A DNA stretch of 64,000 nt, from NCBI GenBank assembly GCA_005772895.1, contig SXIH01000055.1:1-64000 (forward strand). The letters are read 5' to 3'. Shown here piece after piece: positions 11,512 to 54,761 of the stretch. The notes below the pieces were generated by a model that ran no database searches, was not told the DNA's origin, and saw only the letters and a list, made by a program, of their open reading frames with translations. Each line of letters begins with the position of its first letter. The first letter of the stretch is position 1. The position numbers and the translations under genes are program-made. This DNA is from Bacteroidota bacterium (GTDB lineage: Bacteria; Bacteroidota; Bacteroidia; 2-12-FULL-35-15).

Positions 11512-12198
11512 CTAACCGGCAGAACAAAAATTACATCCAAGCTCTTGCGCTCTGTTTAAAGCCCATATTCCGGTTGGCATTAATTGTATTCCTGGTAAAA
11601 CATTGTCGAGAAATTCTTTTTTTACAACTTCTTTATCCAATTTAAGACTTTCAGCTAAACTTTCTGCACTGTGTTCGAGTCCTTTTTTGCAGACAGCGAT
11701 CATTCCACCACGTTTTTGAAATAGTTCAAAACAATCATCATCTTCGGTTTTACATTTAGCAAAAATATTTCTTAATGTAATTTCTTTTGTTTCCGGGTCC
11801 TTCAATTCTACACGTTTCCCAAATCCGTATTTTTCCCACAACGGGTAGGCAAGTGCAAGCGAACCTCCTGCATAGCGTAATATAATTACAACCGACAAAT
11901 CTTTATCGGGAATTTCCATATCATTATAGGTGTCCATTAATGTTAATGCCCAACTCAAGGGTCCTCCATTATTATGTTTACACATATCAAACACCATTTT
12001 ATGTTTTTTTCCTTCCATTTGTGAAAACCATTTTTCTGCTTCTTCTGAACCGACTAATGGAGCAGTACTCCCGCCTGCCGGACGGGCAGGTTGTGCTTGT
12101 GTCTTTAAAGGTGAAACAATGGATGATAAACCAAAGGCTGCCGCACCACCAAGTATAGTTCGGATAAAACCCCTGCGATGTGTTGTTTGTTCTTTCAT
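11512..12198 (-). CDS. Tat-exported DsrE-like protein with C-terminal CxxC
   Basis: The 228-residue product starts with a twin-arginine signal (HRRGFIRTILGGAAAFGLSS), so it should be exported folded. The mature part has the alternating pattern of DsrE/DsrF-like proteins: HKMVFDMCKHNNGGPLSWAL, SVVIILRYAGGSLALAY, and near the end LMPTGIWALNRAQELGC. The chain ends in CNFC (Cys222, Cys225) three residues from the terminus. DsrE-type proteins take part in sulfur transfer, but a sulfur role here is inference. Directly after the signal peptide, QPARPAGGS is encoded by a copy of the 21-bp PARPxGG repeat (12070-12090). The gene's stop faces mltF with one base between. A promoter with ideal spacing lies upstream. 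Confidence 0.7.
   Translation of the reverse strand: MKEQTTHRRGFIRTILGGAAAFGLSSIVSPLKTQAQPARPAGGSTAPLVGSEEAEKWFSQMEGKKHKMVFDMCKHNNGGPLSWALTLMDTYNDMEIPDKDLSVVIILRYAGGSLALAYPLWEKYGFGKRVELKDPETKEITLRNIFAKCKTEDDDCFELFQKRGGMIAVCKKGLEHSAESLAESLKLDKEVVKKEFLDNVLPGIQLMPTGIWALNRAQELGCNFCSAG
12070..12090 (-). repeat. PARPxGG 21-bp repeat, copy 1 (in coding sequence)
   Basis: On the coding strand the copy reads CCTGCCCGTCCG-GC-AGGCGGG, seven in-frame codons (Pro-Ala-Arg-Pro-Ala-Gly-Gly) placed between Tat signal and mature domain. It has terminal complementary ends CCTGCC/GGCGGG. Other copies are at 26572-26592 and 54117-54137. Confidence 0.8.
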
Positions 12199-26253: not shown

Positions 26254-26988
26254 CTATTTAGGGATAGAGTCTTTCTGTAATTGCTCTTTTTGCTTACGGA
26301 TGCTGTCGGCATTCAGGTTTAATAAGCCACTTAAGCCCACATTACTGCTTGTTCCCTTTGTAACTGCTGCTTTTTTAGTACTTTCTTTTTCTTTGGTTTC
26401 TCTTACAATTCCTTTAGAAGAATCAATCATATCACCAAATACGGGTTCATTACCCATTACCGAAACTTTTTGATTTTTAGAAAAGTCGTTATCGTTAGCT
26501 TTTGCTTTCTTGTCTTTTACTTTTTTCTCAGCAATCGCTTTTTCTTTTGTATCAACAGTCGCAACTGTTGTCCCGCCTATCGGACGGGCAGGCTTAATTT
26601 CAGGAGTTGCAGTTTTAACTTCAGGAACTACTACCGGTTCTTCTTTTGCGATTGGAGGTGTTGTAGTAATTGTATTTGTTACAACCGGAGCAGGTTTAGG
26701 TGCTGGTGCAACTTTTGTTTCTACCGGTGCAATATTCGTTTCAATCGTGTTCTCAACAGTTGTTTTTGAAGAAGTAACTCCTTTATAAATAGCAAATCCC
26801 CCAACCAAAATCACTCCGCCAATAATAATTGCCATATTGTATGAACCTTTTTTGACAATAGACTTAGGTGTAGCATCAAGCATACGCTCCATGCGTGCCC
26901 AATCTCCGGAATCATACTTAGCATCGTAATTGCTTAAGTTGTCCTTAATTGTCTCATCAAGCTTGTTTGGAGGAGTATTATTTTCCAT
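26254..26988 (-). CDS. Single-pass membrane protein, possible sigma-factor partner
   Basis: The 244-residue protein has a cytoplasmic N-terminus (LDETIKDNLSNYDAKYDSGD, then WARMERMLD), one membrane segment (MAIIIGGVILVGGFAIY, about residues 52-68), and a Pro/Thr/Lys-rich periplasmic part of low complexity. The gene overlaps the end of the ECF sigma gene by 11 bp, so the two are translationally coupled. The layout (short cytosolic domain, one helix, outside domain) resembles anti-sigma factors, but no recognised anti-sigma domain is seen, so this is inference. KPARPIGGT is encoded by an in-frame 21-bp repeat at 26572-26592. Confidence 0.7.
   Translation of the reverse strand: MENNTPPNKLDETIKDNLSNYDAKYDSGDWARMERMLDATPKSIVKKGSYNMAIIIGGVILVGGFAIYKGVTSSKTTVENTIETNIAPVETKVAPAPKPAPVVTNTITTTPPIAKEEPVVVPEVKTATPEIKPARPIGGTTVATVDTKEKAIAEKKVKDKKAKANDNDFSKNQKVSVMGNEPVFGDMIDSSKGIVRETKEKESTKKAAVTKGTSSNVGLSGLLNLNADSIRKQKEQLQKDSIPK
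26572..26592 (-). repeat. PARPxGG 21-bp repeat, copy 2 (in coding sequence)
   Basis: Coding strand CCTGCCCGTCCG-AT-AGGCGGG gives Pro-Ala-Arg-Pro-Ile-Gly-Gly, in the same orientation and frame as the other two copies, inside a Pro/Thr-rich low-complexity region. Confidence 0.85.
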
Positions 26989-41625: not shown

Positions 41626-42615
41626 ATGAGTAAAGTATTTGTAACTGGTCCTGATGGAGTTTTAGGAAGTAATATTGTTCGCGAATTACTTTCAAGAAAA
41701 TATGAGGTAAGAGTTTTGGTATTTGGTCCAAGTCAGCCAATAACATTAAAAGGATTGCCGATTGAAATTGTTGAAGGGAACATTACCAACAAAGCACAAT
41801 TAATTGAACTTTCGAAAGGATGCGATTATTTTATTAATGTTGCTGCAATAACTGATATGTGGCCAACACGCGGTCAAAAGTATTTTAAAATAAATGTAGA
41901 AGGTGCTGAAAATGCTGTTGAAGCAGTGCTACAAAATAAAATAAAACGATTAGTACATGTTGGAAGCGCCAGTTCATTTGGTTATGGAACAATTGATAAT
42001 CCAGGTAATGAAACTTCGGCATACAAATCTGCAAAATATAAAGTAGATTATATCGACAGCAAAAAGCTTGGACAGGAAAAAGTACTTTCTTCAGTTAAAG
42101 AAAGAGGATTGGATGCGGTGGTTGTTTGCCCAACATTTATGATTGGTCCGTACGATTCAAAGCCTAGCTCCGGAGCAATGATAATTGCTATTGCAAAAGG
42201 TGAACTTCCTGGTTATTCTTCTGGAGGAAAAAATTGGGTATATGTAAAAGATGTAGCAGTTGGAGTTTGTAATGCATTAACAATGGGCCGTTCGGGAGAA
42301 GCATATATTTTAGGAGGAGAAAATATAACGTATGTAAATGCTGTAAAAAGAATTGCGGCTGCACTCGGACAAAAAAAACTTCCAAAATTTGTTGTCCCTA
42401 GATTTTTATTATTGACGATTGGATGGTTTGGAACTGTTGCTGCGGCTATCACAGGTAAGCCGCCAAAACTTACAATCAATCTTGCACAAATTGCTTGTGA
42501 TGGCCATTATTTTAGTCCGAAAAAAGCCATTGAAGAATTAAAAATACCTCAAACACCAATTGAAGTTGGAGTGAAAGAAGCAAAAGAATGGTTTATAGAA
42601 AATAAATATTTGTAG
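41626..42615 (+). CDS. NAD(P)-dependent SDR, epimerase/dihydroflavonol-reductase-like
   Basis: The 329-residue extended short-chain dehydrogenase has a Rossmann start MSKVFVTGPDGVLGSNIVRE, where the usual GATGFLG reads GPDGVLG, so the last loop Gly is kept. Further motifs are NVAAITDMW, FKINVEGAENAVEA and HVGSASSFGYG, with the catalytic Tyr-x-x-x-Lys in VDYIDSKKLGQE. The family reduces aldehydes/ketones or epimerises sugars and sterol-like substrates; the actual substrate is not evident. It stands alone with its own promoter, between dispersed TCGACTCCGCTC repeats. Confidence 0.88.
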   Translation: MSKVFVTGPDGVLGSNIVRELLSRKYEVRVLVFGPSQPITLKGLPIEIVEGNITNKAQLIELSKGCDYFINVAAITDMWPTRGQKYFKINVEGAENAVEAVLQNKIKRLVHVGSASSFGYGTIDNPGNETSAYKSAKYKVDYIDSKKLGQEKVLSSVKERGLDAVVVCPTFMIGPYDSKPSSGAMIIAIAKGELPGYSSGGKNWVYVKDVAVGVCNALTMGRSGEAYILGGENITYVNAVKRIAAALGQKKLPKFVVPRFLLLTIGWFGTVAAAITGKPPKLTINLAQIACDGHYFSPKKAIEELKIPQTPIEVGVKEAKEWFIENKYL

Positions 42616-42617
42616 TT

Positions 42618-42660
42618 CTCGCCCTTCGACTCCGCTCAGGGTGACAACTCGAACTGACAA
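42618..42660. repeat. TCGACTCCGCTC hairpin repeat after the SDR gene
   Basis: CCCTTCGACTCCGCTCAGGG forms a CCCT/AGGG hairpin followed by TGACA. It belongs to the family at 41511 and 55476 and probably terminates the SDR gene and the convergent T9SS gene. Confidence 0.65.
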
Positions 42661-53792: not shown

Positions 53793-54761
53793 ATGGCTAA
53801 AAAAGCGCAAAAAGGTAAACCAGCTAAGAAAGTTGCAAAACCTGCAAAAAAAGCGGCAGCAAAAAAGCCTGCAAAGAAAGCAGCTCCTAAAAAAGCAGCT
53901 AAACCTGCAAAGAAAGCAAGCAAACCAGCTAAAAAAGCTGTAGCAAAAAAAGTTGTTAAAAAAGCAGCACCTAAAAAAGCTTCCAAACCAGCTAAAAAAG
54001 CAGCTCCAAAGAAAGCAGCTAAGAAAGTTGTAAAAAAAGTAGCTAAGAAAATAGTTAAAAAAGTAGCTCCTAAAAAAGCAGCTAAAAAAGTTGTTGCAAA
54101 AAAGGTAGTAGCTAAACCTGCCCGTCCGGTAGGCGGGAAAGTTGCTAAACCTGTTGCAAAAGTTGTAGCTAAAAAAGTAGAAGTAAAGAAAGTTGCTCTG
54201 GCTAAACCAGTTGTTGTTGCAAAACCTGCTCCTATTGTTAAAGAAACAGTTGCAAAGAAAAAAAGTCGCGAGTTTGTAACGGACGATGATTATAGTTCTG
54301 ATGAAGCACCAATGGTGGTAGAATATAAAACACCTTCTATCCGTAAACCAATGGGTCCTGCACCTAAACCACATATCAATACAGATACTCGTACTCGTTA
54401 TTCTGATAATGAATTGAAAGAATTTAAAGAATTGATTCTTAAAAAATTAGGTGAAGCTCAAAAAGATTACGAATTATTAAAGAGCACACTTTCTCATAAA
54501 GACGATCACGGAACAGATGATACTTCTCCGACTTTTAAATTGTTGGAAGATGGTTCAGATGTTTTGTCAAAAGAAGAAACAGCTCATTTAGCTAGCCGTC
54601 AGGAAAAATTTATCCAAAATCTTCAAAATGCATTAATCCGTATTGAAAATAAAACTTACGGAATTTGCAGAGCAACAGGTAAATTGATTTCTAAAGAGCG
54701 CTTGAGAAGCGTTCCTCACGCTACATTGGCGATTGAAGCAAAACTTGAACAAAATTCTTAA
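53793..54761 (+). CDS. Histone H1-like Lys/Ala tail fused to a DksA/TraR-type domain
   Basis: The 322-residue protein has two parts. Residues 1-150 are a Lys/Ala/Pro repeat tail (KPAKKAAPKKAAKKV-type) like histone H1 or AlgP C-termini, likely to bind DNA non-specifically. Residues 200-322 are a DksA/TraR-like domain: NELKEFKELILKKLGEAQKD, a coiled hairpin, and NKTYGICRATGKLISKERLR. The four-Cys zinc site of DksA is reduced to one Cys, so it probably binds no zinc. PARPVGGK is encoded by a 21-bp repeat at 54117-54137. The gene follows ileS by 13 bp and precedes lspA. Binding to RNA polymerase, as by DksA, is inferred. Confidence 0.88.
   Translation: MAKKAQKGKPAKKVAKPAKKAAAKKPAKKAAPKKAAKPAKKASKPAKKAVAKKVVKKAAPKKASKPAKKAAPKKAAKKVVKKVAKKIVKKVAPKKAAKKVVAKKVVAKPARPVGGKVAKPVAKVVAKKVEVKKVALAKPVVVAKPAPIVKETVAKKKSREFVTDDDYSSDEAPMVVEYKTPSIRKPMGPAPKPHINTDTRTRYSDNELKEFKELILKKLGEAQKDYELLKSTLSHKDDHGTDDTSPTFKLLEDGSDVLSKEETAHLASRQEKFIQNLQNALIRIENKTYGICRATGKLISKERLRSVPHATLAIEAKLEQNS
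54117..54137 (+). repeat. PARPxGG 21-bp repeat, copy 3 (in coding sequence)
   Basis: CCTGCCCGTCCG-GT-AGGCGGG encodes Pro-Ala-Arg-Pro-Val-Gly-Gly in the Lys/Ala tail, the same frame and orientation as copies 1 and 2. The rest of the tail is AT-rich (AAA/GCT codons), so this GC-rich block stands out. Confidence 0.85.

Follow-up and report, generated by a model that had tools for sequence, protein, structure and literature searches.

The three copies of a 21-bp sequence in the window, the 64,000-nucleotide stretch of DNA analysed here, belong to a dispersed palindrome, CCTGCCYGTCCGGYAGGCRGG, which is present in the source genome (G000) in two subtypes, A and B. We hold with high confidence that this palindrome is a mobile unit of exactly 21 bp. 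The findings as a whole are, in our judgment, probably best explained if the unit is non-autonomous DNA moved in trans, with the reading frames of its surviving copies filtered by selection.

The type-A pattern, CCTGCCCGTCCG-nn-AGGCGGG, has three exact matches in the window, which, as the first-pass annotation had claimed, vary only in the middle two bases (GC, AT and GT); in 100 dinucleotide shuffles the pattern found zero matches even when 3 mismatches were allowed. All three copies lie in long open reading frames and are read in phase 0 from the coding strand, as PARPAGG, PARPIGG and PARPVGG, the same peptides that had been proposed from the first reading of the sequence:

11512–12198, minus strand: host ORF of the first copy, 228 aa, with a Tat-like signal (RRGFIRTILGG) followed by the element
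12070–12090, minus strand: type-A element, exact pattern match, read PARPAGG; absent in the orthologues of G035, G016 and G010
26254–26988, minus strand: host ORF of the second copy, 244 aa, Pro/Thr-rich
26572–26592, minus strand: type-A element, read PARPIGG; 21-bp gap in the orthologues of G010 and G016
53793–54761, plus strand: host ORF of the third copy, 322 aa, with the element within its Lys/Ala-rich N-terminal part
54117–54137, plus strand: type-A element, read PARPVGG

The three host ORFs matched no Pfam family at E 1e-5, and comparison of the window with the Rfam RNA families gave nothing at gathering score. A different palindrome, CCCTTCGACTCCGCTCAGGG, lies at 42622–42641, directly past an ORF end at 42615, and is also found in relatives' loops.

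Pattern searches of the source genome (3.54 Mb in 71 contigs) returned 28 sites that match the type-A pattern with 3 mismatches or fewer, so that the window holds 3 of roughly 28 copies. Many of these sites are of subtype B, CCTGCCTGTCCGGYAGGCAGG, which differs from A at two positions and is present in 14 exact copies and about 19 copies overall. Eight type-A copies read PARPxGG, and one more A-like copy (L020) reads DPPAGRIG; type B is read from the opposite strand, as xLPAGQAGx in 15 of its 17 confidently coding copies. Here and below, coding calls are by ORF length, not annotation, and many of the genomes are MAGs. A site with 3 mismatches (L024, NPARQVGWM) resembles an ordinary acyltransferase motif and was left uncounted. 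As DNA, all variants are predicted to fold into a hairpin with a 6–8 bp stem and a 5-nt loop (–5.8 to –8.9 kcal/mol), whose ends, CCTG/CCYG and CRGG/CAGG, carry neither a GTAG nor a CGTC tag. The C variant of the element is stop-free in all six frames, and the T variant has a TAG in one frame.

The notion that the hosts are unrelated proteins extends well beyond the window, with copies across unrelated genes genome-wide. By Pfam, the type-B hosts in the source genome include a RadA-type ATPase, HSP90 (HtpG), PheT, Mur ligase family proteins (FolC and MurC by sequence), asparaginase, AnmK, D-Ala ligase, a DUF58 protein, a biotin carrier protein (BCCP), an MqnA/D menaquinone biosynthesis protein, TilS, an MG2-domain protein and a histidine kinase. 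Comparison with relatives reveals the sites in their empty state. The RadA insert is absent from 16 congeners among the matches listed, the congener RadA being 98% identical, and the DNA reads ATTAA^CATG in G035 where the source genome has ATAAA-[21 bp]-CATG. The same clean 21-bp gap is found in the relatives' D-Ala ligase, HtpG, BCCP, asparaginase, DUF58 protein, MG2-domain protein and MurC, the last of which carries its copy in a different frame in the source genome, read PAYRSGR. In the window, the relatives' DNA joins across the 21-bp gap at the 26572 copy (G010 and G016); the 12070 copy is likewise missing in relatives, in a linker too divergent for exact placement of the gap. In these empty-site comparisons exactly 21 bp are gained, and the target is neither duplicated nor shortened. 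Some insertions are common to two species, namely those in asparaginase (source genome and G010, the former with a second, private copy) and in BCCP (source genome and G035), which argues against assembly error.

One loop of MqnA holds the 21-mer in the source genome and G016, another palindrome, CACCCTGAGCGGAGTCGAAGGGT, in G010 (L279) and a heptamer microsatellite in G035 (L295). That one loop takes in-frame elements of unrelated kinds, depending on the species, speaks for a tolerant site more than for any special role of the peptide encoded by the 21-mer. Other repeats were seen in similar company. The AnmK gene of the source genome (L014, contig C34, ~1471–1551) contains a second dispersed palindrome, CTCTCCTTCAGGAGAGGGGCCGGGGTGAGG (PSPSGEGPGVRP), in frame, with the 21-mer nested within it, and relatives lack both. 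Tandem repeats of heptamers, for instance (AACTCCG)n, stand in frame in conserved proteins (L028 and L277, MurC; L027, TilS; L009), often adjoining a 21-mer. An AlphaFold model of RadA had a mean pLDDT of 41 and was set aside.

The element is by no means confined to the source lineage. In a sample of 295 Bacteroidia genomes, 47 have at least one copy and the source genome, with 23, is among the richest; a reversed control pattern had zero copies in the same 295 genomes. A scan of GTDB genomes gave at least 117 stretches with an exact match, and the matches listed include Bacteroidota, Patescibacteria, Omnitrophota, Nitrospirae, Elusimicrobia, Chloroflexi and others. Cultured bacteria are among the carriers, for instance Arenibacter sp. 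P308M17 and Flavivirga sp. 57AJ16. Chance over 257 Gb would produce ~31 exact matches if all of this DNA were 70% GC and <1 at 50% GC. An IMG/VR scan gave 42 stretches with the element, from contigs that overlap with those of G059, a prophage-rich termite-gut Bacillota MAG in which the amplification is strongest: 158 matches within 2 mismatches, with as many as 17 copies on one 18.9-kb contig that bears tape-measure, tail-sheath, portal and head genes. Homologous stretches within this MAG (90–96% identical) differ by exactly 21 bp at four sites. A transposase gene of the same MAG (L401, 380–1660, contig C197; phrog_506, TnpB-like by sequence) has two 21-mers, which implies that the element invades other mobile DNA too. 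At three further loci (L409, L412 and L413) several 21-mers adjoin GGGCGGATATTA^TCCGCCC-like sequence, another palindromic repeat; each may have been inserted on its own, or a composite repeat may have been copied as a whole.

The first-pass annotation had also held that the element is inserted in the same frame and orientation in the three proteins of the window. As a bias this stands for the source genome, where one frame is used by 8 of 9 type-A copies (binomial p ~3e-5), or in the frame tally by 7 of 8 (p 2e-5), and by 15 of 17 type-B copies (p 3e-12). As a rule it fails: type B is read from the opposite strand, frames differ in other genomes, and in G059 the copies are spread evenly over all six (p 0.31). 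Type-B copies from the GTDB scan are strongly skewed in frame among the matches listed (p 9e-9). In IMG/VR the type-B frames are even (p 0.25), and those of type A, with the G059 contigs included, are mildly skewed, to a different frame (p 0.005). Because frames look random in G059 and are strongly biased in the source genome, we take the single-frame pattern to reflect, most plausibly, selection for linker peptides that do no harm, and regard a selective filter on frames as probable. From the frame counts we infer that the skew in cellular genes reflects selection for short Pro/Ala/Gly-rich inserts, mostly free of Cys. Part of the skew could nevertheless be insertion bias, given the type-A skew to another frame in IMG/VR.

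At the target there is a preference for a purine at –1 and a pyrimidine at +1, limited to these adjacent positions, and +1 is never A in 78 sites of G059. Copies can enter other hairpins: in L164 and L175 the element lies within another copy of itself, and removal of the inner copy restores a perfect outer one; in G049 a copy cleanly splits another REP hairpin. The palindrome does not continue outward into the flanks, and complementarity of the flanks does not exceed that of shuffles. For this reason the idea of a palindromic target as a rule was dropped, and insertion into hairpins (L164, L175, L236) is taken as a set of examples only.

Let us consider how such a unit might spread. The element is best described as a REP-like GC-rich hairpin, non-autonomous and copied to new sites. 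As the empty sites show, it enters between two bases, with purine^pyrimidine preferred, and target DNA is neither duplicated nor lost. Insertion would be near random in frame and orientation. Owing to the seven-codon length and the stop-free C variant, the gene is not broken and instead gains seven residues. Selection would then retain those copies whose peptides are rich in Pro/Ala/Gly and harmless (PARPAGG, LPAGQAG), at positions that tolerate them, leaving one frame dominant in cellular genes. The element would most likely move as a hairpin of single-stranded DNA, on which a HuH-type or similar single-strand DNA enzyme acts in trans; that the mover is of the HuH type is a tentative proposal. 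Phages and other mobile DNA may carry the element between lineages.

The classical version of such a scheme, in which a REP is mobilised by a RAYT encoded in its own genome (TnpA_REP, a Y1 HuH transposase), has the hairpin and the absence of target duplication on its side, both of which agree with single-strand transposition by HuH enzymes (PMC8266576); in addition, the source genome has 4 Y1 genes, and such genes are present in 10 of 10 high-copy Bacteroidia. Most relatives have Y1 genes in any case, however (48 of 59), and the element is found in just 1 of 63 Y1 loci (200 kb), where it is nested in a different REP. The Y1 genes of the source genome are flanked by other palindromes, and the element lacks a GTAG or CGTC end tag. 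G059, with its 158 copies, has no Y1 match, which is strong but not final evidence, the MAG being of unstated completeness; in G010 and G023 (each 99% complete) copies occur without any Y1 match, though they could be relics. We consider same-genome RAYT mobilisation unlikely, and RAYT adjacency was rejected as a general link on the count of 1 in 63 Y1 loci and the lack of a Y1 match in G059. Two of the Y1 transposase genes in the source genome have palindromes of their own, TGTCCCTACGGGACA and CTAGGCTCCGCCTAG, on both sides (L029, 1274–1288 and 1980–1994; L032, 1210–1224 and 1854–1868), a separate REP-like system.

Alternatively, replication or repair might capture hairpin oligonucleotides by template switching or fork ligation, with no dedicated enzyme at all. 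The very short unit, the absence of duplication and the nesting of copies in other palindromes fit such capture; the fixed length and ends, the flank preference and the retention of one sequence across phyla do not, and suggest a specific recogniser, so that we find this route rather improbable.

In several species PARPxGG recurs within linkers and Lys/Ala-rich stretches, which could give the impression of a functional linker peptide that has arisen, or is kept, at the protein level. Yet it is the DNA that is conserved while the peptide shifts with frame and strand, some copies are in unclear or non-coding places, and orthologues do without the peptide. Orthologues with the same peptide encoded by other codons, which had been named beforehand as the sign of protein-level conservation, were not seen; instead, one DNA unit gives different peptides according to frame. 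The type-B copies and the empty sites refute this explanation as a general account, and we give it hardly any credence. Finally, a signal kept for its own sake (DNA uptake, or replication/segregation), which a short conserved sequence tolerating coding DNA might resemble, was rejected as extremely improbable since the copy number is too low (~28 in 3.5 Mb) and the distribution too patchy (47 of 295 sampled Bacteroidia genomes with any copy, insertions private to single species apart from some common to two, as in asparaginase and BCCP, and no uniform, dense, conserved distribution seen within a clade).

Our favoured reading remains a mobile 21-bp DNA moved in trans. Such an element offers protein insertions in highly conserved genes as clean before/after pairs, produced by minimal mobile DNA, and these pairs make it possible to test how far insertions are tolerated, how frames are filtered and which enzyme mobilises the element. 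It also calls for caution in annotation, as the peptides LPAGQAG and PARPAGG can signal a recent DNA insertion rather than a functional motif. It is conceivable, though we lean somewhat against so broad a claim, that a 21-bp palindrome of many phyla, which phages help to spread and a non-RAYT enzyme moves, serves bacteria in general as a source of seven-residue, in-frame additions to their proteins.

Literature searches for the element sequence or for intragenic palindromes of its kind returned no description, and in the papers searched the 21-mer core was not found in such a context. Several known systems are nevertheless related in some respects. Intragenic REPs of the GTAG and CGTC families occur in several species, some in DNA repair and tRNA synthetase genes (PMC3733652), and like them the element is a short GC-rich dispersed hairpin that may be single, tandem or nested and is in part intragenic; unlike them, it has no GTAG/CGTC tag, is mostly intragenic in the source genome and is unlinked to RAYT genes. 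With the single-strand transposition of IS200/IS605 and RAYT systems it shares a hairpin substrate and insertion without target duplication (PMC8266576), but it has no linked Y1 gene, and a one-base flank preference on each side takes the place of the 4–5 nt 5′ target (PMC8266576). MITEs are similarly small, non-autonomous and dispersed; the element differs from them in having neither a target site duplication nor a visible parent insertion sequence. A further parallel had been drawn in the first-pass annotation, to a Rickettsia-like but shorter in-frame palindrome, and is upheld by the unrelated host genes and the orthologues without the element. Rickettsia palindromic elements (RPE; Ogata et al., 2000, as described in PMC10969869) are protein-coding palindromes, likewise in frame within many unrelated protein-coding genes and with a preferred peptide (PMC10969869). 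They measure ~100–150 bp against exactly 21 bp, and their sequence is, as judged from the literature search only, unrelated. In contrast to the RPE, the present element occurs in many phyla and on phage-like contigs, not in Rickettsiales only, and overall uses several frames. The element suggests that Rickettsia is not alone in having protein-coding palindromes.
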